Origin: Rhizobiaceae bacterium | GTDB lineage: Bacteria > Pseudomonadota > Alphaproteobacteria > Rhizobiales > Rhizobiaceae | Assembly: GCA_004299545.1 (NCBI GenBank) | Contig: SCRB01000772.1 | Location: 1 to 14,198 of the forward strand | DNA length: 14,198 nucleotides | Reading direction: 5' to 3' | Translations under genes and position numbers: made by a program | Part shown: positions 1 to 14,016 of the stretch, piece by piece | How the letters are laid out: each line of letters starts with the position of its first letter | Numbering within the stretch: position 1 is the first letter of the stretch | The notes under the pieces: generated by a model | Database searches by the model: none | What the model saw: only the letters and a program-made list of their open reading frames with translations | What the model was told of the DNA's origin: nothing

Positions 1-131
1 CAGTCGATATCCCGAATTGCCGACCTTGTCTGCTCAATGTTATCCGTATCGTCACCGATCATTGGTTTGTGGGAATCGCCATTTATCACGAGTTTGAGCG
101 GCGGCACACGGCTATGCGGTTCTCGACTCAT
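1..131 (-). CDS. Partial hypothetical protein, N-terminus only (runs off window start)
   Basis: An open frame reads from an ATG at 131 to the window edge without a stop, giving 43 residues that begin MSREPHSRVPPLKLVING. A GGAGGG ribosome binding site (plus-strand 140-145) sits 8 nt before this ATG. A second in-frame ATG at 149 is possible but lies upstream of that site. The frame follows the DoxX gene on the same strand after a 76-base gap, so it may be the fifth gene of the metallophore operon. The visible part is hydrophilic, has no signal peptide or membrane segment, and matches no family I recognise. In related operons an ECF sigma factor or its NrsF/DUF1109-type regulator often follows, but this N-terminus does not identify either. 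It could also be a chance open frame, since only 43 codons are visible. Confidence 0.42.
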   Translation of the reverse strand, partial: MSREPHSRVPPLKLVINGDSHKPMIGDDTDNIEQTRSAIRDID

Positions 132-207
132 CAAGGGCACCCTCCGCATGGGCGAGAGCCCTTGGGGTGCTTGCAATGAACGCGTCTTGCGGCGGAACGG
201 GCAACCA

Positions 208-732
208 TCACGTTGTACCTTTTGGCTTTCTCGGTCGGCAAAGCGCGTCGATAAGATGATCGAGAGATAGCCTGCCCGGACCAATTGCGATGATGCCGAT
301 CGCCATGGCGGCCCAGGGAAGATGGAAATTCGCCCAGCCTTCGGGCACGACAAGCTGAATGACGCCGGTCATGACCAGCAGACCGAACGCGCTGAACCGG
401 GCTGCAAGGCCAACGACCAACAGGATCGGCAAGACGATCTCGGCAACGCTGTCGAATGACGCGAGCACGCCGGGCATTGGAAGGTCGTAGACGCCACCGA
501 AGATATGCAGCTTGAACTGCTCTTCGAACAGGAAAACCGCCGTTGGGGACAAGGACAGGAATCCATCCCATTTGGTCAGGCCCGAGCGGAAGAACGGAAC
601 AGCCAAGGCGATCCGAAGCGCAATCGGCGCCACGGCATATGCCATCCACGCCAGCCATTTGAGGACGAGGCGAACGCCCCGTTCCGCACGCGTCCCGCCG
701 ATCCGGTTTGTTGCGGTTTGTGAATGTGTCAT
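208..732 (-). CDS. DoxX-family inner-membrane protein of the bufferin operon
   Basis: This 174-residue protein has about four hydrophobic membrane segments (roughly residues 26-48, 96-112, 115-130 and 138-153). The DoxX-type motif FFRSGLTKWDGF follows the first segment, and a short basic tail ends the protein. Length and topology fit the DoxX/DoxD superfamily of small quinol- or thiosulfate-linked membrane proteins; the biochemical role of these buf-linked members is not established. Its ATG overlaps the bufC stop as ATGA, indicating translational coupling and co-expression. DoxX genes are frequent companions of DUF2282-DUF692-DUF2063 clusters. A role in redox supply or membrane handling for metallophore maturation is inference. 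Family assignment is confident, function is not. Confidence 0.9.
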   Translation of the reverse strand: MTHSQTATNRIGGTRAERGVRLVLKWLAWMAYAVAPIALRIALAVPFFRSGLTKWDGFLSLSPTAVFLFEEQFKLHIFGGVYDLPMPGVLASFDSVAEIVLPILLVVGLAARFSAFGLLVMTGVIQLVVPEGWANFHLPWAAMAIGIIAIGPGRLSLDHLIDALCRPRKPKGTT

Positions 733-1535
733 GCTCTCACACCTCGCGTCAGCCGCCCCGGTTCGTTAGCCGTGTGGCAGTCGATGAAGGCTCCGATGGC
801 AATCAGATCGCGGATGTTTCTTGAAAGATCGAAACGCGGGTCCGCGCGGAGGGCAATCTTCATAGCCTCGGTCAGCGGCTGGCCTTGTTGCAAGGCCTCC
901 ACGAATTCGTAGCCGCCGGGCGGCGTCGCACAGACCTCGACCTTGGCGGCGGGCCGCACCAGGAGCACGTCCTCGCCGCCAGCCGTCAAGTCCACTGGAG
1001 CCGGCACGCCGTCGCCAATATTCATTCGCCAGATCGTGAGTATCGGAAACCGGGACCAGATCAGGCGCAGCGAGGGGTGGAGGCTGAATGTAATGCCTGC
1101 TGCCTGGTTTTCGGGGATGGCGGCCAGGGCCGCGGCCGTCAGTGGATTTGCTTCGGGCGCGTGGTAGGCTTCGTGCCATGCGCGCTCGAGTCGCGCGATA
1201 TCGGCCAGGTAGGGAACGTCCGCAACGGGCTCGAATCCGGCGATGAAATTAGCAAATCCGATGCCAAATTCAAAGAGGATCGGCGAGGTGGGCGGCTCGG
1301 AAGCCACGAAGATACGCGCCATTGCGTCAAAGAATTCCTCGCCCACGATGCGGCAAACCGACGGGAAGTTAGCCTTCAACGCCTCGACGAGACCGACCAC
1401 CACATTGTTCCGATAGACCGCAAATCTTCTCGGGCTCGGCTCACCATCCGGCCCGACGAGCCCTGGCGGCAGGACGATTGTCGGATCGAACAAGGCATCA
1501 GCAAAGCCGCCCAGCCTGTCAGCCAGCGATTGCAC
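729..1535 (-). CDS. bufC: BufC/HvfC-like DUF2063 protein, partner of the MNIO maturase
   Basis: This protein (268 residues from the chosen start) carries the DUF2063 N-terminal domain signature [14 protein letters not shown] (about 36-49). It is followed by [17 protein letters not shown] and [20 protein letters not shown] (about 107-126), then a C-terminal domain typical of HvfC/BufC. Such proteins pair with DUF692 MNIO enzymes (MbnC is the methanobactin analogue) and are thought to bind and present the precursor peptide. The old label 'putative DNA-binding' rests on a structural resemblance only. I chose the GTG at 1535 because AAGGAG lies 7 nt upstream and the N-terminus [15 protein letters not shown] matches the usual family start. 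A TTG at 1556 would add seven residues but has no better site. The gene overlaps the end of bufB by 17 bases and the start of the DoxX gene by 4. Confidence 0.9.
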
Positions 1536-2418
1536 GGGCCTGCTCCTTTCGGTCAATGGCGGACATGATTGCCTCCGCCCGCTCGGCTTCGGCCTTTAGC
1601 TCCGGCCACGGAGGCACATTGGCGTCCCACTCGATCAGGGTCGGCATCGGCCCGAGGCGCCCGATAGTATGCTGGTAAAGATCCCATACAATGTCGTCGA
1701 CAGGGCGGTCATGCGTGTCGATCAGTAGCGGTCGCCCCTTCTCGTCCGTTTCAGGAGTGTAGCCGGCAAGATGAATCTCCTGAACCGACGCAAGCGGATA
1801 TTCATCGATGTAGCGGAGCGGATCCCATTGCTGATTGGTCGAGGCGACATGAACATTGTTGACGTCGAGCAAGAGCCCGCAACCAGTTCGTTTAACGATC
1901 TCGGCGATGAAGTCGATTTCCGAATAGGTGCTTTCGGCGAAGGTCAGATAGGTTGACGGGTTTTCCAGCAGCATCTGCTGCCCAAGCGCTTCTTGAACTT
2001 CGTCAATGTGGGAAGCCACACGCGAAAGCGACTCCGTGGTATAGGGCACGGGTAAGAGGTCATCGAAATACGCGGTATCGTGGGTCGACCACGCAAGATG
2101 TTCAGAAAACAGTCCAGGCCGATAGCGCTCGATAAGCCCCTTCAGCCGATTGAGATGATCGCGATCGAGCGGCCGGTCGGCACCGATCGAGAGCCCCACA
2201 CCGTGGAGTGATAGCGGATAGAGGTTGCGGATCTCGGTGAGGTAACGGTGCGGGGGGCCGCCGGCGCCCATATAGTTTTCCGCATGCACCTCGAAGAAGC
2301 CGATATCGGGCGCAGTTTCGAGGATCGTCCGGTAATGTTCGGGCTTGAGACCGACTCCGGCACGCGATGGAATTTGTCCATTCTGCGGCACACTGGCATC
2401 ATCGTTTCGGCGGCTCAT
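1519..2418 (-). CDS. bufB: BufB, DUF692 multinuclear non-heme iron (MNIO) maturase
   Basis: This 299-residue protein is of normal length for the DUF692/MNIO family, a TIM-barrel fold with two or three irons that oxidatively remodels Cys or Asp residues in RiPP precursors (MbnB, TglH, ChrH, bufferin enzymes). Clusters that fit the conserved metal-ligand set are all present: FFEVHAENY (E43, H45, E47, N48), LHGVG (H72), SEHLAW (E106, H107), LLENPSTY (E152, N153), [10 protein letters not shown] (D185, N187/N188, H190), EIHLAGY (H216), DTHDRPV (D234, H236) and LIEWD (E263). No ligand position looks lost, so the enzyme should be active. AGGAGG-like GGGAGGAA precedes the ATG by about 10 nt. By analogy with characterised bufferins it would convert Cys residues of BufA to thiooxazole-type groups before export; this is inference for this protein. 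It is separated from bufA by 85 bases containing a hairpin. Confidence 0.95.
1543..1548 (-). promoter_or_regulatory. Ribosome binding site that decides the bufC start
   Basis: On the minus strand AAGGAG lies 7 nt before the GTG at 1535, inside the final codons of bufB. It supports the GTG start over the TTG at 1556, which would place this site inside the coding region. Confidence 0.6.
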
Positions 2419-2454
2419 GACAGGAGTTCCTCCCTTTAACTCGATGAACGGTTT

Positions 2455-2482
2455 CCGGAGCGGACGCTGCGGTCCGCTCCGG
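2455..2482 (-). other. Perfect intercistronic hairpin between bufA and bufB
   Basis: An inverted repeat has 11-bp perfect arms, CCGGAGCGGAC (2455-2465) and GTCCGCTCCGG (2472-2482), and a 6-nt loop. It lies 21 bases past the bufA stop and about 36 bases before the bufB ATG. On the bufA-to-bufB transcript it is followed by AAACCG, not a U-tract, so it is not a standard intrinsic terminator. The most likely role is to protect the 3' end of a processed bufA mRNA, or to cause partial termination, so that precursor exceeds enzyme. That role is inference. Confidence 0.75.
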
Positions 2483-2503
2483 CTGGGCGGCTTGACGGCC
2501 GTT

Positions 2504-2854
2504 TCAGGAGTTGATCGGTGTCAGGCTGCCGTGACCCTTTGGCGTGCTGATCGTCGTGCAGGTCCCCTTCTTTACCAGCTTGAAGGCGTTGCCCTGATAG
2601 TTGACCGTGCTGGTTCCCGCACAGGTGGTGCCCGCCCCTGCGTAACAGTCGTTCTGGCCCTTCAAGGCAACGCCGTAGCACTGCTCGAACTTGCCAGTCT
2701 TCATCTCCTTCATGGTCTTCGCCTGGTTCTCCTTCATCATTTTTGCCATGTCGGCTTTGTTCATTCCCGCGGCGCTGACGGGGGCTGCGGCGAGCGAGCC
2801 GACGGCAGCGGCAAAGGCGCTGGCGACGACGACAGACAACATGCGGTTGGACAT
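2504..2854 (-). CDS. bufA: BufA1-type bufferin precursor (DUF2282), exported metallophore peptide
   Basis: This 116-residue protein has a Sec signal peptide: N-terminal SNR, a hydrophobic stretch from 6 to 24, and an APVSA-AG cleavage site near residue 28. A spacer of residues 31-56 is rich in Met and Lys (M31, M36, M39, M40, M48, M51). The DUF2282 core follows: [34 protein letters not shown] and KKGTC, with exactly four cysteines at 59, 70, 78 and 99. In bufferins the core cysteines are split between disulfide and MNIO-made thiooxazole groups that bind copper; which residues are modified here is unknown. An ideal site, AGGAGGAA, precedes the ATG by 4 nt. It is the first gene of the operon, under a SigF-like promoter, with bufB and bufC behind it. 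The mature peptide should act in the periplasm as a metal buffer. Confidence 0.95.
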
Positions 2855-2897
2855 TTGTTCCTCCTATCGGTTGAGGCGGCCACGGCGGCCGCTGGCC

Positions 2898-2917
2898 AGC
2901 AAGCGGCAAGGCTTGCT
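2898..2917 (-). other. Stem-loop in the bufA 5' leader
   Basis: AGCAAG (plus 2898-2903) and CTTGCT (2912-2917) form a 6-bp stem with an 8-nt loop. It lies just downstream of the expected transcription start, within a GC-rich leader of about 65 nt that also contains the palindrome GCTGGCCAGC (2891-2900). It may only give leader structure; no riboswitch family is recognised. Confidence 0.35.
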
Positions 2918-2926
2918 CCTGCTTAT

Positions 2927-2952
2927 TTCGTTTGGCAGAGTCAAAAGGTTAC
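2927..2952 (-). promoter_or_regulatory. ECF SigF-type promoter of the buf operon (GTAACC-N16-CGAA)
   Basis: Read on the minus strand, GTAACC (2952-2947) is followed by exactly 16 bases and then CGAA (2930-2927). This is identical to the consensus I recall for Caulobacter crescentus SigF targets, which include a DUF2282 gene and respond to heavy metals such as chromium and cadmium. The expected transcript start is near 2920, giving a leader of about 65 nt to the bufA ATG. Neither the sigma factor nor its membrane anti-sigma (NrsF/DUF1109) is visible in this window. Confidence is high because motif, spacing, orientation and target gene all agree. Confidence 0.85.
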
Positions 2953-3001
2953 CATGCCGTGCCAGAAATCGACTCAGTTGACACAGGTTTCGCGGTTTCC
3001 C

Positions 3002-3337: not shown

Positions 3338-4168
3338 ATGGCCGTGGTTGAAGTGAAAATCCGAAACGAGATCGGCTGGATCACGCTTAACCGCGCCGAA
3401 AAGATCAATGCGCTTTCGTCGGAAGTCGTCCGGACCGCGCGCGAGGCGGTCGCGGATCTGGAAGCGCGTGACGACGTCAAGGTGATCGTGCTGCGCGGCT
3501 CCGGCGCCAACTTCTCCGTCGGTTACGACATTGCCGAAGAGGTCGAGGTCGGACTCTCCCGCCCCGAGGACTGGCATGGCGCGCTCACCAGAAACGTCGG
3601 GCTTTCCATGGCGGTATGGTCCTCGACAAAGCCGACGATCGCCGCAGTCGACGGCTGGTGCCTTGCCGGCGCCTGCGAACTGGCGATGGCCTGCGACATG
3701 ATTGTCGCCACCGACAGGGCGAAATTCGGCGAACCGGAAATCCGTTTCGGCTCCGGCCCGGTGACGCTTCTGATGCCGTTCATAGTGGGGCAGAAAAAGA
3801 CGATGGAACTTCTGCTGACCGGTGACATCATCGACGCGGCGCAAGCCGAGCGTTTCGGCCTGGTCAACAAGGTGGTGACGCCGGACGAACTGATACCGGT
3901 GGTGGAGCGACTTGCGCGCAAAATCGCGTTGACGCCGCTGGTGACATTGCGGCTCACCAAAACCGCCCTGACGCGGGCCTACGAGGCGATGGGGCTGCGC
4001 AACGCGGTCCATGCCAATCTCGATCTGGCCGCGATCCTGAACGCGGCTGATGCGCCGGAGAAAAAGCAGTTCGCCGAACTGGTGCGCTCGCAGGGGCTGA
4101 GACGCGCTCTCGATTTCCGCGACAGCCGCTATGGCGCGCTCTCGGACAAGCCGGGAGCCAAATCGTGA
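3338..4168 (+). CDS. Enoyl-CoA hydratase/isomerase family protein (crotonase fold)
   Basis: This 276-residue protein is slightly longer than the usual 255-265. Crotonase landmarks are present: N-terminal IRNEIGWITLNRAEKINAL, the oxyanion-hole strand NFSVGYDIAEE (about 59-68), and AGACELAMACD with catalytic-type E114. FGEPEIRFGSGP carries the second glutamate, E134. Both acid/base glutamates of classical hydratases are kept, so water addition to an enoyl-CoA is likely; substrate is unknown. GYD replaces the more usual GAD at the oxyanion loop. I chose the ATG at 3338 because AAAGGA lies 7 nt upstream and the family start MAVVEVKI follows. A longer in-frame extension to 3227 has no supporting features. 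The neighbouring oxidoreductase and CoA ligase suggest organic-acid catabolism. Confidence 0.92.
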   Translation: MAVVEVKIRNEIGWITLNRAEKINALSSEVVRTAREAVADLEARDDVKVIVLRGSGANFSVGYDIAEEVEVGLSRPEDWHGALTRNVGLSMAVWSSTKPTIAAVDGWCLAGACELAMACDMIVATDRAKFGEPEIRFGSGPVTLLMPFIVGQKKTMELLLTGDIIDAAQAERFGLVNKVVTPDELIPVVERLARKIALTPLVTLRLTKTALTRAYEAMGLRNAVHANLDLAAILNAADAPEKKQFAELVRSQGLRRALDFRDSRYGALSDKPGAKS

Positions 4169-4286
4169 GAAAACAAAAGAAGAGGCCTGATTGCTTCTTC
4201 CCTGCGTCCGAGTCCGGCGCCTGTGACGCAACAACACGCTATTGCCGTGCGCATCGGATCGGCGTGAAGAGCCGAATTGAAAACTC

Positions 4287-4916
4287 ATGACCGCCAGCGA
4301 CCGACAAGCCCACTGGCAAGACATCTACACGAACAAGGCGGAAGACCAGGTCAGCTGGTTTCAGGCGGATCCCGCTGTCTCGCTGGAGCTGATCGGCGCG
4401 GCCGGCGCGAGCAAAGCCTCCGCGATCGTCGATGTCGGAGGGGGCGCGTCCCGGCTGGTCGATATGCTGGCTGGTCTCGGCTACGACAATCTCACGGTCC
4501 TGGACATATCGGAAGCGGCGCTCGCCATGGCCAGGACGCGCATGGGCGACAAGGCCGAGGCCGTCGACTGGATGGTCGCCGATGTGACGACCTGGGAACC
4601 GACCGCGAAATTCGATGTGTGGCACGATCGCGCCGCTTTCCATTTCCTGACTGAGGAGCCTGAGCGAGCCGCCTATGTGGCCCGATTGAAACGAGCCCTC
4701 CGGCCCGGAGGAACCGCGGTCATTGGCTCCTTTTCACCGGAAGGCCCGGAAAAATGCAGCGGTCTCCCGGTGCGGCGCTACGATGCGGCCAGTTTGGGCG
4801 CGGTGCTTGGACCCGCATTCAAGCTGATGGAAACGCGAAACCACGAGCACAGGACGCCGTGGGGATCGGTCCAGAACTTTCAGTTCAGCAGCTTCGTTTT
4901 CGATCGGCTTGATTGA
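4287..4916 (+). CDS. Class I SAM-dependent methyltransferase
   Basis: This 209-residue Rossmann-fold methyltransferase opens with AHWQDIYTNKAEDQVSWFQ (about 8-25), the hallmark of a bacterial small-molecule methyltransferase group. Motif I is IVDVGGGAS (47-55) and the acidic residue ending strand 2 is D73 in TVLDIS. WMVADV (95-100) and FDVWHDRAAFHFL (109-121) follow. The late block KCSGLPVRRYD (156-166) and HRTPWGSVQNFQF (188-200) appear typical of this group. The substrate is unknown. The ATG at 4287 has only a weak upstream purine stretch (TTGAAAAC), so translation may be modest. It lies 118 bases after the hydratase gene, with only a weak inverted repeat (AAGAAG to CTTCTT) between, so co-transcription is possible but unproven. 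Confidence 0.88.
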   Translation: MTASDRQAHWQDIYTNKAEDQVSWFQADPAVSLELIGAAGASKASAIVDVGGGASRLVDMLAGLGYDNLTVLDISEAALAMARTRMGDKAEAVDWMVADVTTWEPTAKFDVWHDRAAFHFLTEEPERAAYVARLKRALRPGGTAVIGSFSPEGPEKCSGLPVRRYDAASLGAVLGPAFKLMETRNHEHRTPWGSVQNFQFSSFVFDRLD

Positions 4917-5073
4917 ACAATTGGAGGATGGCAGCAGAAGGCGCCGAATTTCCCAACTCGATGGGCGGGCGCACGTCTTGGCTTCAACCGCACTCCTTTC
5001 TGCTGTCTGCGATGCTGCCATCGCCCGGAATGTCGGCGACAAGCCGCAAAGCCTTGCGCGCAGCCATGCTGCG

Positions 5074-5093
5074 AATCCGAAATTCGGCGGATT
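5074..5093 (+). terminator. Hairpin with T-run just before the hydroxyacid dehydrogenase start
   Basis: AATCCG (5074-5079) and CGGATT (5088-5093) form a 6-bp stem with an 8-nt loop, followed by TTTCGGGG. The stem plus T-run resembles a weak intrinsic terminator, but it lies only about 16 bases before the next ATG and beside its ribosome binding site (GGGGAGGG). It could end the methyltransferase transcript or modulate access to the ribosome site. Evidence is the sequence pattern only. Confidence 0.35.
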
Positions 5094-5109
5094 TTTCGGG
5101 GAGGGTTCC

Positions 5110-6009
5110 ATGCAATACGGCTTCATCGGGCTCGGTAATCTCGGCGGACATCTGGCAACCAGCCTGCTTCGTTCTGGCTTCAAGGTGAGGGTGCACGATA
5201 AGGAACGCGTGGCTGCCAATCCCCTTGTCGAACTCGGGGCGGAATGGGCGGCATCGCCGGAGGCGCTTGCCGGGGAATGTGACGCCGTCTTTACGTGCCT
5301 GCCATCGCCGAAAGTCTCGGAGCGCGTGCTTGGCGAGATGCTGAAAACCATGCGGCCAGGGTCGGCCTGGATCGAGATGTCAACGCTTGGCCGCGACGAA
5401 ATCCTCCGCCTTGCTTCAATCGCCGAGGCGAAAGGCGTGCGTACGATGGAACTGCCGGTGACCGGCGGCGTCCATCTCGCGGCGCAAGGCAAGATCACGA
5501 TGTTGGCCAGCGGCGACAAGGGCCTCTTTGAACTGCATCGCCCGGCCCTTGAAGCCATGGGCAACAAGATTTTTCACATGGGTCCGCTCGGCAATGCGTC
5601 GGTGATCAAGGTCATCACGAACATGCTGGCGTTCATCCATCTCGTCGCCGACGGCGAAGCGCTGATGCTGGCCAAGCGGGGCGGACTGGACCTTGGACAG
5701 GCCTGGGCGGCGATCAAGGCCAGTTCCGGCAATAGCTTCGTTCATGAAACGGAAGGTCAGCTTATTTTGAACGGAAGCTATGACGTCGCCTTCACCATGG
5801 ACCTTGCCCTCAAGGATCTTGGGTTCGCCATGGATTTCGGCCGCGAGTTCGGCGTTCCGCTCGATCTGGCCGGCCTCACCAACCAGATTTTTGTCAGGGG
5901 CCGGGCCGCCTATGGCGGCCAGGCCCAATCGACGCAGATCGTCAAGCTGCTCGAAGATGCCGTCGGCGCCGATTTGAGGGCGCCCGGATTCCCCGCTCGT
6001 CTGGAATAG
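5110..6009 (+). CDS. 3-hydroxyisobutyrate dehydrogenase-family NAD(P)-dependent oxidoreductase
   Basis: This 299-residue protein matches the usual length of beta-hydroxyacid dehydrogenases (HIBADH, tartronate semialdehyde reductase). The dinucleotide-binding GFIGLGNLG is at 4-12 and the second strand ends in D30, favouring NAD. The substrate-binding motif is ELPVTGG (114-120) in place of DAPVSGG. Catalytic K167 lies in GNASVIKVITN, with the conserved Asn at 171, and KDLGFAMD at 235-242 completes the family set. I chose the ATG at 5110 because GGGGAGGG lies about 5 nt upstream and the protein begins directly with the Rossmann strand. The open frame extends 67 codons further upstream without family similarity. 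It converges on the MFS gene with 27 bases between. The substrate is probably a beta-hydroxy acid, not further defined. Confidence 0.92.
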   Translation: MQYGFIGLGNLGGHLATSLLRSGFKVRVHDKERVAANPLVELGAEWAASPEALAGECDAVFTCLPSPKVSERVLGEMLKTMRPGSAWIEMSTLGRDEILRLASIAEAKGVRTMELPVTGGVHLAAQGKITMLASGDKGLFELHRPALEAMGNKIFHMGPLGNASVIKVITNMLAFIHLVADGEALMLAKRGGLDLGQAWAAIKASSGNSFVHETEGQLILNGSYDVAFTMDLALKDLGFAMDFGREFGVPLDLAGLTNQIFVRGRAAYGGQAQSTQIVKLLEDAVGADLRAPGFPARLE

Positions 6010-6036
6010 GCGAAGGTCGCGCGAGAGGATCCCGGC

Positions 6037-7221
6037 CTACGTCCTACCGACACGGGGCAGAAAGGCAGGCGAAAGGACCGCGATGGCGGCGGCCACAACC
6101 AGCGCCATTCTGTAATTCCCATGCAGGTCATACAGCCATCCCGCCAATCCGGGGCCCAGCAGGCCCGCCGCCGCCCAGCCGGTGAAGGCCCGGCCATAGA
6201 TACGGGCGCCCGCAGACACGCCAAAGTTTCGCGAAATGGACGCGGGAAAAACAGAGATCACCCCACCATAGGCAAAGCCGACAGCGGCTAATCCTGCAAT
6301 GGTGACGACACTCTGTGGCAGGAACGCCATTGCGATCAGTGCCGTGGAGGTCAAGATCGCGAGGGATGCGAGTAGCACCCGGTCCTGCGCTTTATCGAGC
6401 ATGACCCCGCAAAGAATGCAGCCGAACATGTTTGAAGCCGCAACCACGGCAGGCGACGCAACGATCAATCGTTCACTGGCGTCTGCAGCCCACGCGATGC
6501 CGGTGGCTTGTCCCATCACCATCAGCCCTGCCATCACCGCGCAACCATAGGCCAACCAGAACGAGACGATGACTTTTCGGTCGACATCGCCGCTCGAAGC
6601 GGAGCGGCCAGCGGAACGCGCGTAGAACATTCGCGAGCGGGCGAGCAGAATGGAACCGCCGGCGGCGAAGACGATTATGGCGAACGACAGCACGAGCAAT
6701 GCCGCCGTCCACCCGCCTTCATCCAGCGCTGCGGCGAGCGGGACCGGAAAGACGACGGCGCCGAGGGCATATGCGGCGTTGATGGCTCCCATCGCCAAGC
6801 CTTTACGGCGCGGCATCGCCTGGGCCGACAACTGCAGCGCATAGCCGTAGCCCAATCCGTTGGCGCCACCGAAAAAAAGGCCATAACCGATCCAGACCAC
6901 GGTCACCGATCCCCCAAAGCCCGCGAGAAGGCAACCGGCCGCGGCGAGGAGACTTGTCGCGGCGGCATATGTTGCGGGAGCAAGTTTCGAATAGAGGCGG
7001 TGGCCCGTCAAAACGCCAAGGGCGAGGCTCGCAAGCGCGATTGAGTAGGTGAGGCTGGCGACCATCCGGCTTGTGCCAAAATCTCTTTCCATCGCCGGAA
7101 GAAAAACTGAGAAGGCATGGACGGAGCCCAAACCGAAAGAAAACAGCATCAATCCGGCCAAGGCAGACAGATTATGGCTGGAGAACGCAATGCGACGCGG
7201 GTTTTCCGTCCCGTTGAACAT
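6037..7221 (-). CDS. MFS transporter, oxalate/formate antiporter (OFA)-like
   Basis: This 394-residue protein has about 12 hydrophobic segments split by a hydrophilic central loop (around residues 197-220). The N-terminal half has LFSFGLGSVHAFSVFLPAM (26-44) and the motif GANGLGYGYALQ (119-130) followed by PRRKGLAMG, typical of OFA-like monocarboxylate carriers. A likely substrate is a small organic or aromatic carboxylate, inferred from family and neighbours. The ATG overlaps the stop of the upstream crotonase gene as TAATG, showing translational coupling. It is the last gene of a three-gene operon with the CoA ligase. The frame is open far upstream inside the crotonase gene, but those residues are not MFS-like and are a shadow. 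Confidence 0.9.
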   Translation of the reverse strand: MFNGTENPRRIAFSSHNLSALAGLMLFSFGLGSVHAFSVFLPAMERDFGTSRMVASLTYSIALASLALGVLTGHRLYSKLAPATYAAATSLLAAAGCLLAGFGGSVTVVWIGYGLFFGGANGLGYGYALQLSAQAMPRRKGLAMGAINAAYALGAVVFPVPLAAALDEGGWTAALLVLSFAIIVFAAGGSILLARSRMFYARSAGRSASSGDVDRKVIVSFWLAYGCAVMAGLMVMGQATGIAWAADASERLIVASPAVVAASNMFGCILCGVMLDKAQDRVLLASLAILTSTALIAMAFLPQSVVTIAGLAAVGFAYGGVISVFPASISRNFGVSAGARIYGRAFTGWAAAGLLGPGLAGWLYDLHGNYRMALVVAAAIAVLSPAFLPRVGRT

Positions 7222-7976
7222 TATTTCTGCCGCGATTTGATGAATGCGGTCAGAGCCGTGCGGGTCTCTTCGGAGCGAAAGCAATCGGAATCGTAGGCTT
7301 CCTCCAATCGTAGGACCGACATGAAATCCGCATCGGCGGCCATGTGGAAGGACCGTTTGATATTGCGCAGTCCGGTCATGGGGAAGCTGGCGATACGCTG
7401 GGAAAGCTTCTCCGTTTCCGCCACGAGCGCGTCGTCCTCGACGACCCGGCTGACCAGCCCCACGCGCAGGCTTTCGTCGGCATCCAGCATGTCGGTGGTC
7501 AGTGCCATGTCCATCGCCACGCTGAGCCCCACCATTCGTGTCAGCAGCCATGTCAGTCCGCCGGTTGGGCTGAATCCCAGATTGGCGTCGGGCAGACCGA
7601 GCCTGGCCGACTTGCCGACGATGCGCATGTCGCACATCAGCGCGATTTCCAGCCCACCCCCAAGGGCGAAGCCGTTGATCGCGCCGATGATCGGCTTGTC
7701 GAGCGCTCGTGTCTCCGCCGCCAGCGCCTGATAGAGCGCGGCCGCCTTGCGAAAATCGTCGTCCGTCATTTTGGCCATCGCCTTGATGTCGGCGCCGACG
7801 CTGAAGGCGCGGCCGGTCCCGGTCAGAACCACGACCCGTACATCGGGGGATTCGGCGGCTTCCCGGAACATCCGCAGAAGTTCCTCAAGGCCGGGGATGT
7901 CGAAAGCGTTCAGCGCCTCCGGCCGATCCATGATCACCCACAAGACGCCGTTGCGGATTTCCTTGCGAATGGTCAC
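7221..7976 (-). CDS. Enoyl-CoA hydratase/isomerase family protein with Asp at the second catalytic position
   Basis: This 251-residue crotonase-fold protein has the oxyanion loop AFSVGADIKAM (57-67) and GGGLEIALMCD with catalytic-type E110. LGLPDANLGFSPTGG (126-140) places Asp (D130) where hydratases have Glu in a PEI-type motif. One glutamate and one aspartate suggest an isomerase, a lyase or a modified hydratase instead of a standard beta-oxidation enzyme. The start is GTG at 7976, supported by GGGAGGG 6 nt upstream and 18 bases after the ligase stop. It lies between a CoA ligase and a carboxylate transporter, so its substrate is probably the CoA thioester made by the ligase. Confidence 0.92.
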   Translation of the reverse strand: MTIRKEIRNGVLWVIMDRPEALNAFDIPGLEELLRMFREAAESPDVRVVVLTGTGRAFSVGADIKAMAKMTDDDFRKAAALYQALAAETRALDKPIIGAINGFALGGGLEIALMCDMRIVGKSARLGLPDANLGFSPTGGLTWLLTRMVGLSVAMDMALTTDMLDADESLRVGLVSRVVEDDALVAETEKLSQRIASFPMTGLRNIKRSFHMAADADFMSVLRLEEAYDSDCFRSEETRTALTAFIKSRQK

Positions 7977-7982
7977 GAGCGG

Positions 7983-7989
7983 CCCTCCC
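7983..7989 (-). promoter_or_regulatory. Ribosome binding site supporting the GTG start of the crotonase gene
   Basis: On the minus strand GGGAGGG lies 6 nt before the GTG at 7976 in the 18-base gap after the CoA ligase stop, a strong site that supports the non-ATG start. Confidence 0.6.
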
Positions 7990-7994
7990 TGCTT

Positions 7995-9320
7995 TCAGAG
8001 CTTGTAGTTGCGCAGGACACGACGCGTCTTGTGTTCCGAAGCGATCGTTCCTTGGGGAACCAGTTCCACCAGAGCGGCAAAAGCGGCTTTCGTCCGGATG
8101 ACGGCCTCGGTTTCCCTGATCAGCGCCGCGTGTTGGGATGATGGTACGCCGGGGGAAACCTCAACCAGCAGGCGCGGCGCATAATCGAAGGGTGGCGGGG
8201 TATCCAATGCCACCTGAAACTCGCCGGTGAGGCGAGGGTGCAATTCGTGCAGCACTTCCTGGATCGACGTTGGAAAGATGTTGACCCCCTTGACGACGAA
8301 CATGTCGTCGCTGCGGCCGCGCGTGTGAAAGCGGAAACCGGTGCGCCCACAAGCGCAGCGGCTTGTTTCCACCGCGACGAAATCGTGGCTGCGCAGGCGT
8401 AGGAGCGGCGAGGCCTGGCGGCGGATGGACGTGAAAACCAACTCGCCGGTTTCGCCGTCTTTCATCTTCTTGACAGCGCCGCTGTCCGGATCGATCAACT
8501 CGGCGATCACATAGCCCTGACCGCAGAAGTGCATGCCGTTGCGGTGCTCGCATTCGGCGCTCTGGCAACCAAGTTCGGCGACGCCATAAAGGTCGCCGGC
8601 TGCCATTCCCCAAGTTTTTTCGATCTTCTGGCGGTAGCCGGGCACTTGAAGCCCGGCTTCACCCGAAAAGACGCCTTTTCTTACGTTCAAGGTCCGCGGT
8701 TCCATCCCCGCTTCCGACGCGATGCCGGCCAGCCGCACGGCATATGAAGGTGTCGAGTAGAGGCATTTGTCGCCTGGAAGATCGGCGAGCAGGTCGAGCA
8801 GGGCACGCGAGTTTCCGACGCCGTAGGCAAGCACCGCGGCACCGAGATGTTCGAACGCCATGTGATCCATCACGCCGCCGGCATATATCGAATAGTTGAA
8901 GCAGTTTACGACCAGGTCGCCGGGCCGGCAGCCGAGGATCCACAACGCGCGCGCGCCCATTTCACTATACGCGTGCACATCTTCGCGGGTCCAGGCAATG
9001 CGCATGGGTTTGCCGCTGGTGCCGCCGGTGCCGACCAGCCGCACGATTTTATCCATCGGTGCGCACTGATGCGGGCCGATCAACAAACCCTCGCGCTGCG
9101 CCTGAGCCAAGTCCTTCTTTTCGGTGAAGGGCACCATTTCCAGCGCCTCATGACACGTAATCTCGTGGGGTCTGATTCCGGCGTTGTCCAGCACGCAGCG
9201 ATAATAATTGGAATACGCGTAGAGATATTCGACCTGCGCCGCGAGAATTGGCGCTTCGTAGCGGCGCAACTCCCCTGCCGTCATCGTTTCCAGTTCCTCG
9301 CACCAGAATGTCGGAGCCAC
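7995..9320 (-). CDS. Phenylacetate-CoA ligase (PaaK)-like AMP-forming acyl/aryl-CoA ligase
   Basis: This 441-residue protein is of normal PaaK length. It has the N-terminal FWCEELETMTAGELRR block, the ATP-binding loop GTGGTSGKP (97-105), LYGVAELG (244-251) and GRSDDMFVVKGVNIFP (335-350). The hinge and C-terminal domain follow, with a KTRR lysine region near the end. Cysteines C252, C257, C322 and C324 fit the structural zinc-type cysteines of PaaK relatives. The reaction is activation of a carboxylate to its CoA thioester through an adenylate; phenylacetate itself is not implied because no paaABCDE genes are nearby. The start is GTG at 9320, with GAGG 7 nt upstream; the ATG at 9284 would cut off the conserved N-terminus. 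It is the first gene of the ligase-crotonase-transporter operon. Confidence 0.93.
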   Translation of the reverse strand: MAPTFWCEELETMTAGELRRYEAPILAAQVEYLYAYSNYYRCVLDNAGIRPHEITCHEALEMVPFTEKKDLAQAQREGLLIGPHQCAPMDKIVRLVGTGGTSGKPMRIAWTREDVHAYSEMGARALWILGCRPGDLVVNCFNYSIYAGGVMDHMAFEHLGAAVLAYGVGNSRALLDLLADLPGDKCLYSTPSYAVRLAGIASEAGMEPRTLNVRKGVFSGEAGLQVPGYRQKIEKTWGMAAGDLYGVAELGCQSAECEHRNGMHFCGQGYVIAELIDPDSGAVKKMKDGETGELVFTSIRRQASPLLRLRSHDFVAVETSRCACGRTGFRFHTRGRSDDMFVVKGVNIFPTSIQEVLHELHPRLTGEFQVALDTPPPFDYAPRLLVEVSPGVPSSQHAALIRETEAVIRTKAAFAALVELVPQGTIASEHKTRRVLRNYKL

Positions 9321-9327
9321 GACAGCG

Positions 9328-9331
9328 CCTC
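9328..9331 (-). promoter_or_regulatory. Ribosome binding site for the GTG-started CoA ligase
   Basis: GAGG on the minus strand lies 7 nt before the GTG at 9320. It favours this start over the internal ATG at 9284. Confidence 0.45.
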
Positions 9332-9380
9332 GTCAGATGTTTCACAGGCAATCATTCTGCTCGGAAAAGGCGACTTGTGC

Positions 9381-9394
9381 AGATTGAAAAATCT
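9381..9394. promoter_or_regulatory. Candidate LysR operator in the divergent ligase/regulator intergenic region
   Basis: The inverted repeat AGATT-GAAA-AATCT lies in the 97-base region between the divergent ligase operon and the LysR gene, 23 bases before the regulator ATG. AT-rich interrupted dyads of this kind (T-N11-A class) are typical LysR-type binding sites that serve both autoregulation and activation of the divergent operon. This is inference from position and symmetry. Confidence 0.45.
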
Positions 9395-9417
9395 TACGAT
9401 TCGCATACGCTGAAGTT

Positions 9418-10311
9418 ATGGAAAGCCTGTCTCGCTCCCTGCCGCCGCTGCGCGCCCTTCTGGCTTTCGAAGCCGCTGCGCGCCTTGGCAGTTTCACCCG
9501 TGCCGCAGATGAATTGAACGTCAGCCAGCCTGCCATCAGCCGCCAGGTTCGCGCCTTGGAAGAGGCCCTCGGCGTGCCCCTGTTTCTCCGGGATCACCGA
9601 CGTGTCACGCTGACGCTTGCCGGGCAAAGCTATCGCGAGGCGATCGTTCACGGATTAAATAGCATCCTGCTCGCGGGCCGCAGAATAGCCGAAAGCGGAG
9701 CGTCGGAGCGCGTGACGATCCATGCCAATTATGGTCTTGCTTCCTACTGGCTGATACCGCGCCTTGCGGAACTGCAGGCGGCGCACCCCGAAGTCGAGAT
9801 CGCTGTCGCGACCATGGAAGAAGACCGCGCTTTTTCCGAAGCAGAAGCGGAAGTCGCCATACGTTTCGGAAAAGGCCGCTGGCGTGACGGCGCGACGCGG
9901 CTCCTTTTTCCAGAAGCAGTCTTCCCGGTTTGCAGTCCGCGCTATCTCGAGACGTCACCGCCGTTGAAGTCCGTCGCAGACCTGGAACGGCACAAATTGT
10001 TGCATGTTCGGACAACCTTGGAGCGGCCGTGGCTGGACTGGCGGTCCCTTTTGAAAGCGCTCAAGGCAAATTCTCCCGCCAGTTCCGGTTCTTCCTACAA
10101 CAATTACACCCTGGCCGTTCAGGCGGCGCTGGCCGGACAGGGCCTCGCAATCGGCTGGAAGCACATCATCGATGACTTTCTCGACAAGGGTTGGCTCGTC
10201 AAGCCTCTGGACGTCGAGGTGACGACTGCATCCGGCTATTATTCGGTCGCAAACAGAATGGCGCAAAACTCCAACCATGCAAGAATGGCGCTCGACTGGC
10301 TTCACCGGTAG
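9418..10311 (+). CDS. LysR-type transcriptional regulator, GcvA-like
   Basis: This 297-residue protein is the standard LTTR length. The N-terminal winged HTH covers about residues 10-66, with LLAFEAAARLGSFTRAADEL and NVSQPAISRQVRALEEALG followed by VPLFLRDHRRVTLTLAG. The C-terminal effector domain has the GcvA-like features SYWLIPRLAELQAAHPEVEI and AEVAIRFGKGRW. Residues NNYTLAVQAALAGQGLAIGW form the usual late LTTR motif. It is divergent from the PaaK-like ligase operon and is probably its regulator, with a CoA-activated acid or its precursor as effector. It may also act on the plus-strand genes downstream. The ATG at 9418 is well placed before the HTH; the ribosome site is weak, common for LTTRs. 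Confidence 0.93.
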   Translation: MESLSRSLPPLRALLAFEAAARLGSFTRAADELNVSQPAISRQVRALEEALGVPLFLRDHRRVTLTLAGQSYREAIVHGLNSILLAGRRIAESGASERVTIHANYGLASYWLIPRLAELQAAHPEVEIAVATMEEDRAFSEAEAEVAIRFGKGRWRDGATRLLFPEAVFPVCSPRYLETSPPLKSVADLERHKLLHVRTTLERPWLDWRSLLKALKANSPASSGSSYNNYTLAVQAALAGQGLAIGWKHIIDDFLDKGWLVKPLDVEVTTASGYYSVANRMAQNSNHARMALDWLHR

Positions 10312-10315
10312 ATGC

Positions 10316-10329
10316 GCCGGTCGACCGGC
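10316..10329. repeat. 14-bp perfect palindrome after the LysR gene
   Basis: GCCGGTCGACCGGC is a perfect 14-bp palindrome 5 bases past the LysR stop, with no loop and no T-run after it. It may contribute to transcript ending or be a protein site. The remaining bases up to 10438 show nothing else. Confidence 0.4.
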
Positions 10330-10438
10330 AATCCCGAGCGAACCCCTTTTATGCGCGGCAAAACGTGGATGCCCTGGATTGACGGAACAGCCCTCAAGGC
10401 GGGCAGACAATTTTGAGAGTAATTGCCGAGGGTGGGGG

Positions 10439-11365
10439 ATGAAGGTCGGATTTATCGGATTGGGCACGATGGGGCGCAACGCGGCGCTCAATATTGTCCG
10501 CGAGGGATTCGCCACCGTCGTTTACGACATCCGGCCTGACGCTCTTAAGCCGTTGATCGAGACAGGCGCCGTCACGGCGGCTAATCCGGCCGAGGTGCTG
10601 GACCAGGTCGATGCCGTCGTCACGATGGTGTTCGGCCCGAAGGAGATCGAGGCGGTCGTCCGCGGAGAGAACGGATTCCTTTCGACGAATTGCCGGGGCA
10701 AGTACTGGATCGATCTCACGACCAGTAGCCCGGGATTGATGCGCGTGCTCGGGGAGGAGTTCCGGGCCAGAGGAGGTAAGCCGATCGATGCCCCGGTGAC
10801 CGGATCGGTCGACGCCGCGATCCGCGGCGACATGCCGATGTTTGTCGGCGGCGATGACGCCGACATCGAACACGTCCGACCGGTCATCGAGGCCATGGGC
10901 GAAATCCGCAAGGTAGGGAGATATGGCAATGGCTATGTCGCCAAGCTGGTCAACAACCAGCTGTGGAAAATTCATGCAGCGGCGATCGGCGAGGCGATGG
11001 TCACAGCCAAGCTGGCCGGTCTCGATCCGGAGGTGTGGTGGACTGTGATGAAAGGCGGCGCCGCCGACAGTTTCGTCCTTCGCCACGATGTGCCTTCCAT
11101 CTTTGCAGGCCACTACGATCCCTCCTTTCCGCTTGCGCTCTGCCTGAAGGATCTGGGGCTGATCGAGGAACTGATGAACGAGACAGGAACCCGCAACGAA
11201 CTGACAAGAGCGACCCATGAACGTTTCAAGGAGGCGGCATTACGATACGGCAAGGAAGCCGGCGAAATGAGCGTGTGCCGGGTTATTGAAGACGATGCCA
11301 GGACCGATCTTCGCATCGCGGGCGACTGGATCGCACCTTGGGAAGTTGCGGCGCCCACAGCCTAA
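10439..11365 (+). CDS. Beta-hydroxyacid dehydrogenase (3-hydroxyisobutyrate dehydrogenase family)
   Basis: This 308-residue protein has GFIGLGTMG (4-12) for dinucleotide binding with D30 ending the second strand. The substrate motif is DAPVTGS (117-123), where the final residue is Ser in place of the usual Gly. Catalytic K169 and N172-N173 lie in GYVAKLVNNQ, and KDLGLIEEL is at 237-245. It is a paralogue of the gene at 5110 but clearly diverged, so the two probably use different substrates. I chose the ATG at 10439 because GAGGG lies 6 nt upstream and the Rossmann strand starts at once. Only 28 bases separate it from the enolase-superfamily gene, so both are likely one operon, with the dehydrogenase possibly oxidising the hydroxy acid linked to that enzyme. 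Confidence 0.92.
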   Translation: MKVGFIGLGTMGRNAALNIVREGFATVVYDIRPDALKPLIETGAVTAANPAEVLDQVDAVVTMVFGPKEIEAVVRGENGFLSTNCRGKYWIDLTTSSPGLMRVLGEEFRARGGKPIDAPVTGSVDAAIRGDMPMFVGGDDADIEHVRPVIEAMGEIRKVGRYGNGYVAKLVNNQLWKIHAAAIGEAMVTAKLAGLDPEVWWTVMKGGAADSFVLRHDVPSIFAGHYDPSFPLALCLKDLGLIEELMNETGTRNELTRATHERFKEAALRYGKEAGEMSVCRVIEDDARTDLRIAGDWIAPWEVAAPTA

Positions 11366-11393
11366 ATCGCCATTCGGAACTTCGGAGGATGGA

Positions 11394-12560
11394 ATGAAAA
11401 TCACTGGCCTGAAGGCAACGCCCATCAACATTCCGCTTGAGCGGCCGCTCTGGTGGTCGGCGGGTCAGTATCCCGGGACTTCCAAGATCATCATAGAGTT
11501 GGAAACGGATACGGGTCTTGTCGGGCTAGGCGAGGCGCCTTCGACGGATGTGCTGCACCATATCGTCGCGATGGGCGAGCGCCTGCAAGGCCACGATCCG
11601 CTTGATATTGCCGGATGCGAGGCGGTCTGCCTGCCGCCCTGGCAGGTTGTTCAGAACACGGATGATTCCTCGGTCGTCAAGGCATTCGGCTCCATCGAGA
11701 TCGCCATGTGGGACCTGCGCGGCAAGGTCGCCGAAGAGCCGCTTTACCGGCTCCTGGGCGGTGCGGTTCGCAAGAACATTCCCTTCACCGAGTATTTCGG
11801 CTTCCGACCCGAGTCCGAAACCTGCTCCAGCGAAGTCGCGGACTATTGCATGGCCATGCGCGAAGCCCATGGTTCGACCATGTTCGAGGGCAAGCTCATC
11901 CTCGGCGATCCGGTTCTGGAGATCGAGACGGTGAAAGCCATTCGAGAAGCGCTGGGACCCCGAGCCATGATCCGGCTCGATTCCAACATGCAATGGTCCG
12001 TCGCGACCGCCATCCACGTTCTGCGTGAGATCGAGCCCTACAACGTCCGAAACTATGAAGATCCGGTCGCCACCTTCGAGGAGATGGCGGTGCTGAGGCG
12101 TCATTCCTCGATCCCGTTTTCCACGCATATTCCCGATATACGAAAGGCTGTCCGGCTAGGCGTTCCGGATACCATCGTCACAAACTTCGCCGTGCTCGGC
12201 GGCATAACACGTGCGACAAGGTTCATCGGCGCCTGCGAGGCGATGAATGTCGGCTTCTGGTGCTATTCGGGCGATGCTGGCGTCGCGACGGCTGCCTACC
12301 TGCACGTAAAGGCAGCAACGCCCTGGATCACTGAACCGTCGCAATCCTTATTCAGATGGCAAATCGGCGACGTCATCGAAGGCGGGCCATTCAGGCAAAC
12401 CGACGATGTGGTTACCGTGCCCGAAGGGCCGGGTCTGGGCGTAACACTCGATCAGGACGCGCTGAAGGTCTGGCATCGCCATTTCGTTGACAATGGCCCA
12501 CTGGACCACTTCTACGACCCGGCTCATCCGCATCGCTACAGGCGACTTCCTCTCAATTGA
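11394..12560 (+). CDS. Mandelate racemase/muconate lactonizing enzyme-family (enolase superfamily) protein with altered active site
   Basis: This 388-residue protein has the MR/MLE capping domain (about 1-125, with GLVGLGEAPS and FGSIEIAMWDLRGKVAEEPLYRLLGG in two parts) and the barrel domain. Metal ligands D196 (IRLDSNMQW) and E222 (NYEDPV) are clear. The third ligand region reads PFSTHIPD, with H245 where Glu or Asn is usual. The KxK base motif is incomplete: FEGKLILGD (164-172) keeps one Lys (K167), and the partner position is E165 or I169 depending on alignment. No His-Asp dyad was found; the late strand reads WCYSGDAGV. Chemistry is therefore unusual; dehydration or racemisation of an acid sugar or hydroxy acid is only the family default. 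GGAGG lies 5 nt before the ATG at 11394. Confidence 0.88.
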   Translation: MKITGLKATPINIPLERPLWWSAGQYPGTSKIIIELETDTGLVGLGEAPSTDVLHHIVAMGERLQGHDPLDIAGCEAVCLPPWQVVQNTDDSSVVKAFGSIEIAMWDLRGKVAEEPLYRLLGGAVRKNIPFTEYFGFRPESETCSSEVADYCMAMREAHGSTMFEGKLILGDPVLEIETVKAIREALGPRAMIRLDSNMQWSVATAIHVLREIEPYNVRNYEDPVATFEEMAVLRRHSSIPFSTHIPDIRKAVRLGVPDTIVTNFAVLGGITRATRFIGACEAMNVGFWCYSGDAGVATAAYLHVKAATPWITEPSQSLFRWQIGDVIEGGPFRQTDDVVTVPEGPGLGVTLDQDALKVWHRHFVDNGPLDHFYDPAHPHRYRRLPLN

Positions 12561-12577
12561 CCTGTTTTACAGGCTTT
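12561..12577 (+). terminator. Weak intrinsic-terminator-like hairpin after the enolase-superfamily gene
   Basis: CCTGT-TTT-ACAGG begins right after the TGA stop and is followed by CTTTTG. The stem is only 5 bp, so termination would be partial at best. The 184-base gap that follows, before the MFS gene, shows no other clear signal. Confidence 0.3.
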
Positions 12578-12744
12578 TGAGGAGCTCGGCGTCGCTGCGA
12601 AATCCGGCACAGCCTGCAAAAATATTCGCGGCCTGCGACTACGCTGACGCCGCGAAAGCGTCGGTTGTGGACGCTCCTTGAAAAGTCGATGCCGCGATCT
12701 CGGTGATAATTTCAGCTTTGGGTCATCCAGGGATTGGCGTCATC

Positions 12745-14016
12745 ATGATGGGCAGCTTGCGATCGGTCGGCGTGTTGCTGCTCAGTACATTCATCATGAT
12801 GCTGGCGGTTGGATTGCAGGGCATGCTCATCCCGTTGCGAGCCGCCGCGGAAGGCTGGGATCGCACCGAAATCGCTTGGATTGGAACGTCTTATGCGCTT
12901 GCCTTCACCGCAGGCTGCATCGTCACACCGATCCTGGTGAAGCGGGTCGGCCATATCCGTGTGTTTGCCGCACTTCAGGCGCTGCTCGGCATTTCCTTGC
13001 TGCTCCATGCCCTGGTCCTTGAGCCGTTTGCATGGTGCGGATTTCGGGTAATAGGCGGCTTTGCTCTTTCCGGCGCTTACATGATCATAGAAAGCTGGCT
13101 CAACGAGCGTGTGGATAACGCCAATCGTGGTGCGATTTTCGCCGGCTACATGATCGCTTCCATGTCGGGCGTCGGAGCGGGACAATTCATCCTGCCTTTG
13201 GGCCAGGTGGGAACCTCGGCATTGTTCATGATTGGCGCTTTGCTCTATAGCATCGCAATGCTGCCGATTGCCTTCACGACGGCGCAGTCGCCGCAACCGC
13301 TTACCCGCGTGTCCCTCGATCTCAAGGCGCTTTATTTCAAATCGCCGGCGGCGCTCGTCGGTTCATTCCTCGCCGGCGTCATCTTTGGCAACTGGAACTA
13401 TTTCGGGCCGCTTTACGGACGGTCGGTCGGGCTTTCCGCGACAGGCATCGCCACCATGATGACGGCCGCGATGGTGGGCGGCATGCTGTTCCAGGTTCCG
13501 TTCGGCAGGCTGTCCGACCGCATCGATCGTCGCGTCGTCATGGCGTTTGCCGGACTGATTGGAGTGGTGATTTCCCTGATCATGATCGTCACTTCGCCTG
13601 TTCGGCCTGTGGCAATTATCGGCGGCGTGTTTGCACTGGGTTCAGTTCTTTTCACGATCTACGCGCTCAATGTCGCACATGCCAACGACAAGGCCGATGC
13701 AGGCGAATTCCTGCAAGTGTCGGGCGGCCTGCTGATCGTTTACGGCATTGGCACCATGATCGGCCCGCAACTCGGCGGGCGGCTCATGGATGCAACGGGC
13801 CCATCAGGCTTTTTCATTGCAATGGCCATCATTTATGGGCTTTACGGATTGCATGCCTTATGGCGCTCCTGGCAGGCGCCGGCGGTCGATCCCGATCAGC
13901 GCAGCGATTTCCAGGTTCTGCCTGCAACCCCGGTTCATATTCCCGGGACCGTGGCCCTGGACGGGCGGGCAAATGAAGAGTCGAAGGGTGAGGGCGTCAA
14001 GCAGCTTGACACATGA
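12745..14016 (+). CDS. MFS transporter, YcaD-like
   Basis: This protein (423 residues from the chosen start) has about 12 membrane segments and a hydrophilic tail of about 45 residues. The block IIESWLNERVDNANRGAIFA (about 114-133) followed by GYM and GAGQF is characteristic of the YcaD-like MFS group; FGRLSDRIDRR is the second-half motif A. The substrate is unknown. The start is uncertain: tandem ATGs at 12745 and 12748 directly precede the first membrane segment but lack a close ribosome site (CAGGGA is about 12 nt upstream of the first), while a GTG at 12703 would add 14 residues. Position after the hydroxyacid dehydrogenase and enolase-superfamily genes suggests transport of their substrate, but the 184-base gap leaves this open. 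Confidence 0.88.
   Translation: MMGSLRSVGVLLLSTFIMMLAVGLQGMLIPLRAAAEGWDRTEIAWIGTSYALAFTAGCIVTPILVKRVGHIRVFAALQALLGISLLLHALVLEPFAWCGFRVIGGFALSGAYMIIESWLNERVDNANRGAIFAGYMIASMSGVGAGQFILPLGQVGTSALFMIGALLYSIAMLPIAFTTAQSPQPLTRVSLDLKALYFKSPAALVGSFLAGVIFGNWNYFGPLYGRSVGLSATGIATMMTAAMVGGMLFQVPFGRLSDRIDRRVVMAFAGLIGVVISLIMIVTSPVRPVAIIGGVFALGSVLFTIYALNVAHANDKADAGEFLQVSGGLLIVYGIGTMIGPQLGGRLMDATGPSGFFIAMAIIYGLYGLHALWRSWQAPAVDPDQRSDFQVLPATPVHIPGTVALDGRANEESKGEGVKQLDT

Follow-up and report, generated by a model that had tools for sequence, protein, structure and literature searches.

A Buf1 bufferin operon at the edge of a Rhizobiaceae contig

We analyzed a stretch of 14,198 bases (the window) that makes up the entire contig C680 of a Rhizobiaceae bacterium assembly (4.59 Mb, 1067 contigs, 85% complete). 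Its minus strand carries four intact reading frames in the order bufA-bufB-bufC-doxX, which matches the bufA-bufB-bufC order of Buf1 bufferin operons. They are preceded by a promoter motif of the sigma-F type and followed by the beginning of a gene for an extracytoplasmic function (ECF) sigma factor (Table 1). Judged from its sequence, the locus is a Buf1 bufferin operon of the ordinary type and belongs to a class whose chemistry and function have been published; it is a further copy of a known system and not a new kind. The assembly contains a single DUF2282 match and a single MNIO match.

Table 1. Features of the bufferin locus in the window
Feature	Position	Strand	Details
bufA, Buf1 bufferin precursor	2504-2854	minus	116 aa; Pfam PF10048 (DUF2282), E 3e-22
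bufB, MNIO maturase	1519-2418	minus	299 aa; Pfam PF05114 (MbnB_TglH_ChrH), E 3e-108
bufC, DUF2063 partner (PME type 1)	729-1535	minus	268 aa; Pfam PF09836, E 1.5e-23
doxX-like membrane protein	208-732	minus	174 aa; Pfam PF07681, E 9e-13
sigF (ECF sigma factor), first 43 codons	3-131	minus	clipped by contig edge; blastp-short
sigma-F (ECF16)-type promoter, GTAACC-N16-CGAA	2927-2952	minus	-35 at 2952-2947, -10 at 2930-2927

An earlier note on this DNA, made from the sequence alone, had proposed a complete bufferin operon at 208 to 2854, with four genes on one strand and overlapping ends. The four genes are indeed on one strand within that interval. The ends of bufB and bufC overlap by 17 nucleotides (nt) and those of bufC and doxX by 4 nt, whereas bufA and bufB lie 85 nt apart. 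The first of these values assumes that bufC starts at GTG 1535, which is preceded by AAAGGAG and is likelier than TTG 1556; the PF09836 score in Table 1 was obtained with the 275-residue form that starts at the TTG. The promoter falls outside the proposed interval, and the operon cannot be called complete here, as the sigma factor gene begins at 131 and leaves the contig at its edge. The note had suggested a profile search with DUF2282, DUF692 and DUF2063, to be read against it if the proteins fell elsewhere; this outcome did not occur, because Pfam places all three in the expected families. The DoxX assignment held as well. The suggestion that the operon may be undescribed in its host carries little information, since DUF2282 is present in 71 of the 121 genomes searched at order level.

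Precursor, maturase, and partner protein

BufA contains exactly four cysteines (Cys59, Cys70, Cys78, and Cys99). Every one of 118 domain rows, drawn from 86 distinct BufA open reading frames (ORFs) of which some contributed two, has cysteine in the corresponding columns, as do the 22 BufA sequences of a separate alignment. The N-terminus appears signal-peptide-like by inspection, with a charged start, a hydrophobic stretch, and a VSA/AG-like site, and it aligns in relatives. Together with the gene order, this start and the four-cysteine core fit the published description of Buf1 (PMC12452194) and bear out the four-cysteine DUF2282 precursor and the bufferin operon of the earlier note. BufA matched none of the NCBIfam models at E ≤ 0.001 and no solved structure at E ≤ 1.

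BufB passes the NCBIfam model NF050167 (MNIO_BufB, "MNIO family bufferin maturase") with 391 bits against a cutoff of 310, and scores below the respective cutoffs of the HvfB, ApyH, MbnB, and ChrH models. It aligns with the solved MNIO structure 3bww (E 4e-46). At 33 positions, an H, D, E, N, Q, Y, or C residue is conserved in at least 95% of 82 BufB sequences, and eight of these (H72, H107, E152, D185, H216, D234, H236, and E263) stand opposite identical residues in 3bww. These eight are putative metal ligands. BufC belongs to the DUF2063 family, as had been anticipated, and at 268 to 275 residues it is somewhat longer than the 250 to 260 residues of most Buf1 partner proteins with an RRE domain.

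To compare loci, we scanned GTDB genomes, which gave at least 546 BufB relatives, and kept the best 80. Gene arrangement varied among them. A tandem bufA pair was found in 5 of the 81 loci with BufA, counting the window and G003, a genome of the same genus as the source (L028, L053, L054, L057, and L085). At 15 of 80 loci, bufB and bufC are separated by at least 0.3 to 1.0 kb of extra sequence that is absent from the window (L019, L023, L027, L029, L031, L034, L036, L041, L042, L043, L045, L046, L047, L051, and L052); this is possibly the inserted gene named adjamnio-VI (PMC12452194). L063 (414-3385) has an unusual order, with doxX-like and sigma-like genes placed between bufA and bufB.

A sigma-F promoter upstream of bufA

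The motif GTAACC-N16-CGAA is the sigma-F consensus of Caulobacter (PMC3511200). Its exact form occurs once in the window, where chance would give a mean of 0.04 (at least one exact motif in 7 of 200 shuffles). The promoter begins 98 nt upstream of the bufA start codon, and the distance is similar in relatives. For comparison, we counted motifs at 80 loci with BufA, a set that excludes the window, includes G003, and lacks L045 because its contig starts within bufB. Within 250 nt upstream of bufA, the exact motif was present at 23 of the 26 loci with a close nrsF (E < 1e-50; nrsF encodes the anti-sigma factor) versus 2 of the 54 others. With one mismatch allowed, these counts were 26/26 and 11/54. 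Grouping by sigF instead gave 23/28 versus 2/52 at E < 1e-60 and 23/39 versus 2/41 at E < 1e-15. Fisher values for such counts do not represent independent tests, because the loci are related and Afipia sp. 1NLS2 supplied three of them. When the upstream region was extended to 450 nt and the window was counted too, the exact motif was present at 26 of 81 loci and a motif with no more than one mismatch at 38 of 81; shuffling each region 20 times by single bases yielded means of 0 and 2.3, respectively. The association connects Rhizobiales operons of this type with a sigma-F promoter.

We also considered a wider sigma-F regulon in the source genome and rejected it. Exact matches with a spacer of 15 to 17, the one in the window included, numbered 12 versus 17 in a reversed control, so the count is at chance level. 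Two of the hits (C44 and C633) share the same letters close to contig ends, where the neighboring ORFs were uninformative.

The sigF and nrsF genes

The sigma factor frame begins 76 nt past doxX, at ATG 131, and runs to the contig edge. It is 48% identical over 48 columns to the N-terminus of Aminobacter SigF (L014; blastp-short), with an E value of 5e-9 that holds for a small search set, the SigF N-termini of related loci. No other frame of positions 1 to 207 fell below E 1 in that search. Elsewhere in the assembly there is one NrsF match, a C-terminal half (PF06532, E 1.4e-13) that is cut where contig C89 ends. In G003, bufA-bufB-bufC-doxX-sigF-nrsF are consecutive, and Pfam identifies the last two products as Sigma70_r2/r4 and NrsF. 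Because C89 is syntenic with the region of G003 downstream of nrsF, a single short gap most likely separates C89 from the window and would contain the missing parts of both genes, the remainder of sigF and the N-terminal half of nrsF. We presume that the nrsF fragment on C89 is the partner of the sigF in the window. Among four same-genus genomes, DUF2282 was found in two and NrsF in those same two.

We also looked for additional genes that accompany the operon. At 37 loci with sigF (E < 1e-40), at most 8 share any one of the 25 largest neighbor families listed, and one of the two families with that maximum includes a DsbD/CcdA-like gene of G003. That gene lies 3' of nrsF (L094, 5305-7189) together with a thioredoxin gene and a DUF3047 gene. 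On C89 (L011, L095), a DUF3047-like gene follows nrsF by about 0.2 kb; the redox pair is missing there and was not searched for elsewhere.

Two cysteine/histidine patterns in NrsF

Studies of related anti-sigma factors have pointed to two cysteines. In Caulobacter NrsF, C131 and C181 are 50 residues apart, conserved, and functional, and both face the periplasm (PMC3511200). In Bradyrhizobium OsrA, C129 and C179 are the only cysteines, lying in the membrane and the periplasm, respectively, and C179 is needed for the response to peroxide (PMC3420878). The NrsF fragment of the source genome keeps the first of these cysteines and has a histidine at the second place. It belongs to the Pfam NrsF family but is not assigned to the two-Cys type (two cysteines 50 residues apart), because histidine occupies the second cysteine position.

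We examined two sets of homologs and found two nearly invariant patterns. Among the 120 listed of 3216 homologs of Aminobacter NrsF (P0001), Cys110 is present in 120, Cys130 in 119, and His180 in 120. In this first type, which the source fragment follows, the second studied cysteine is replaced by histidine and an additional cysteine sits 20 residues ahead of the first. In the second type, represented by the 120 listed of 485 homologs of Allorhizobium NrsF (L085), Cys130 and His179-Cys180 are present in all 120, and position 110 is L, M, I, G, or A in 119 of them. The 26 loci with a close nrsF show the first pattern (His at 180 in 26/26, with Tyr at 130 in one), and six other nrsF loci show the second at 130 and 180. 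Caulobacter NrsF and OsrA were placed in the second pattern by their reported positions and spacing, not by alignment.

GTAACG, GTAACT, or GTAACA replaces GTAACC at L054, L059, L062, L077, L084, L087, and L093. Each of these seven loci has either the second NrsF type or a sigF that is less closely related, which would fit a joint change of sigma subtype and -35 element. There are exceptions: L085 has no motif match, and L019 and L055 have GTAACT despite the first NrsF type.

In P0001, Cys110, Cys130, and His180 are the sole cysteines and histidine of the chain. In a predicted structure of NrsF (mean predicted local distance difference test score [pLDDT] of 81, with 66 to 77 around the first two residues and about 72 after the third), the three residues fall at helix ends or close to them (helices 97-113, 125-149, and 158-180; model numbering is one higher). 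If the N-terminus is inside, this model would place all three at periplasmic helix ends. A Foldseek search of the model against the PDB gave no match at E ≤ 0.001.

We asked whether the Cys-Cys-His form is exclusive to bufferin operons, and rejected this idea, as this form is also found at a distance from DUF2282 and the second type is also found next to it. P0001 matched in 27 of the 121 genomes of the order at E ≤ 0.001 and in 7, the source included, below 1e-20; of the six others below that threshold, four are Cys-Cys-His, one Cys-Cys-Arg, and one Phe-Cys-Arg. The Cys-Cys-His NrsF is about 3 kb from DUF2282 in G045, 11 kb in G004, and on another contig in G074, and G120 has this NrsF and no DUF2282 match. 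In each of the genomes with the Arg types, G088 and G048, a further NrsF match sits about 1 kb away from DUF2282; that of G088, the one of the two that was read, shows the His-Cys pattern.

Collectively, these observations raise the possibility, which we put forward tentatively and hold to be somewhat unlikely, that the NrsF of this operon type carries a metal-sensing Cys2-His site (Cys110, Cys130, and His180) at the periplasmic face of the membrane, with one cysteine relocated, and acts as a direct Cu(I) sensor and not as a thiol-oxidation switch. A further cysteine in the first membrane segment (column 37) of 95 of the 120 first-type homologs speaks against a clean three-residue site. If the idea is correct, copper itself would switch on its own buffer and close the loop. 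Two near-invariant ligand patterns also mean that what NrsF senses can be probed by simple substitutions. No Cys-Cys-His variant is reported in the titles and abstract openings of the literature searched or in the passages covered of the NrsF papers. This sensor pattern is the one fresh, testable idea to come from the locus; the operon is a further example, in a new host, of a large and recently described family of copper-binding peptides.

A proposed copper-buffering function and its alternatives

We consider it very probable that the locus is a Buf1 operon of the form bufA-bufB-bufC-doxX-sigF(-nrsF) that makes a copper-buffering peptide under the control of its own ECF sigma factor. By analogy with relatives, an excess of periplasmic copper, perhaps along with other thiol-binding stress, would inactivate the membrane anti-sigma factor NrsF; SigF would then be released and transcribe the operon from the GTAACC-N16-CGAA promoter. 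BufB, an iron enzyme to which BufC would present the precursor, would oxidize the central pair of BufA, Cys70 and Cys78, to 5-thiooxazoles, and Cys59 and Cys99 would be joined as a disulfide. The modified peptide would be exported via Sec and chelate copper in the periplasm. DoxX may have an accessory role.

Published work on relatives is consistent with this scheme. Bufferins carry cysteine-derived thiooxazoles, chelate periplasmic copper, and aid growth in copper excess; in Buf1 it is the central cysteines that are modified, with the outer pair linked as a disulfide, and the core cluster comprises precursor, MNIO, DUF2063, and DoxX genes, with sigma factor and NrsF genes also occurring (PMC12452194). 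A 5-thiooxazole has been assigned in related MNIO products as well (PMC13097082). The Caulobacter SigF regulon includes two DUF2282-DUF692-DUF2063(-DoxX) operons (PMC3511200), these targets are induced by copper, and a sigF mutant is copper sensitive (PMC8224329). In Sinorhizobium meliloti, RpoE7 governs the DUF692 and DUF2063 genes of a four-gene set (PMC6180224).

Among the closest counterparts is the Caulobacter Buf1 operon (CC3254-CC3257, with sigF-nrsF at CC3253-CC3252), which shares the DUF2282-DUF692-DUF2063-DoxX order, the four-cysteine precursor, and the promoter motif. There, however, sigF-nrsF is a separate transcription unit, whereas in the group of the window it follows doxX on the same strand, an order that we extend to the source genome from its relatives; NrsF is Cys-Cys-His in this group in contrast to the C131 and C181 described for Caulobacter. 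The S. meliloti system (RpoE7-EcfR7 with SMb20530-SMb20527) also places a four-gene set with DUF692 and DUF2063 under an ECF16 sigma factor, but its arrangement is divergent, its promoters are GTAACA, and the two studied NrsF-type cysteines are stated to be conserved (PMC6180224).

Several points weigh against the copper-buffering scheme. Only 43 codons of sigF are in the window, nrsF is on another contig with its adjacency taken from synteny with G003, and the assembly is only 85% complete. The predicted structure of BufA was of low confidence (mean pLDDT of 54) and was not used, and no solved structure matched BufC. The Cupriavidus metallidurans cluster had no effect on copper resistance, which other determinants may mask (PMC8224329). 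In S. meliloti, none of H2O2, cadmium, and chromate induced rpoE7, copper not being among the conditions listed (PMC6180224), and in a 2012 study sigF and two of its targets were non-essential for Caulobacter metal resistance (PMC3511200).

Some of these reports also bear on an alternative in which the chief target of the operon is some other stress (gold, silver, chromate, cadmium, or oxidants) and copper is incidental. Chromate and cadmium do induce the Caulobacter SigF target operons (PMC3511200), the Cupriavidus relatives were named as gold-induced genes (PMC12452194, PMC8224329), and the related anti-sigma factor OsrA responds to H2O2 (PMC3420878). Inactivation of Caulobacter sigF, however, severely impaired growth with copper, unlike with chromate and cadmium (PMC8224329), and bufferin 1 is described as a chelator of Cu(I) and Cu(II) (PMC12452194). 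We regard this alternative as improbable. That the operon is decayed or silent is very unlikely: the absence of DUF2282 and NrsF from two of the four same-genus genomes suggests that it is dispensable, but its frames are intact, the four cysteines and the conserved BufB residues are retained, and the promoter is exact. Hardly any weight falls on an oxazolin-like (Hvf) or other MNIO product, since HvfABCX shares an MNIO, a DUF2063-type partner, and a DoxX-like protein with the locus, and the HvfB, HvfX, and HvfC models do match BufB, DoxX, and BufC (the latter two weakly), but all miss their cutoffs (242/360, 50/80, and 38/142 bits) where BufB passes its own, and BufA is a four-cysteine DUF2282 protein without the EGKCG repeat of the oxazolin precursor family (PMC13097082).

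Distribution and neighboring genes

The operon is common and partly plasmid-borne. Window positions 1 to 2960 matched 150 of 72,556 plasmid records in a DNA search, 147 of them at 60 to 80% identity and none over 80% of the query. Sinorhizobium, Rhizobium, Shinella, Ensifer, Agrobacterium, or Neorhizobium is named for 100 of these plasmids, and by predicted mobility 25 are conjugative, 38 mobilizable, and 87 neither.

The remainder of the window (3338-14016) holds a gene cluster of catabolic appearance by Pfam and NCBIfam matches. It includes two enoyl-CoA hydratases, a methyltransferase, two 3-hydroxyisobutyrate-dehydrogenase-like genes, two major facilitator superfamily (MFS) transporters, an AMP-ligase-like gene, a LysR regulator, and an enolase-superfamily dehydratase.

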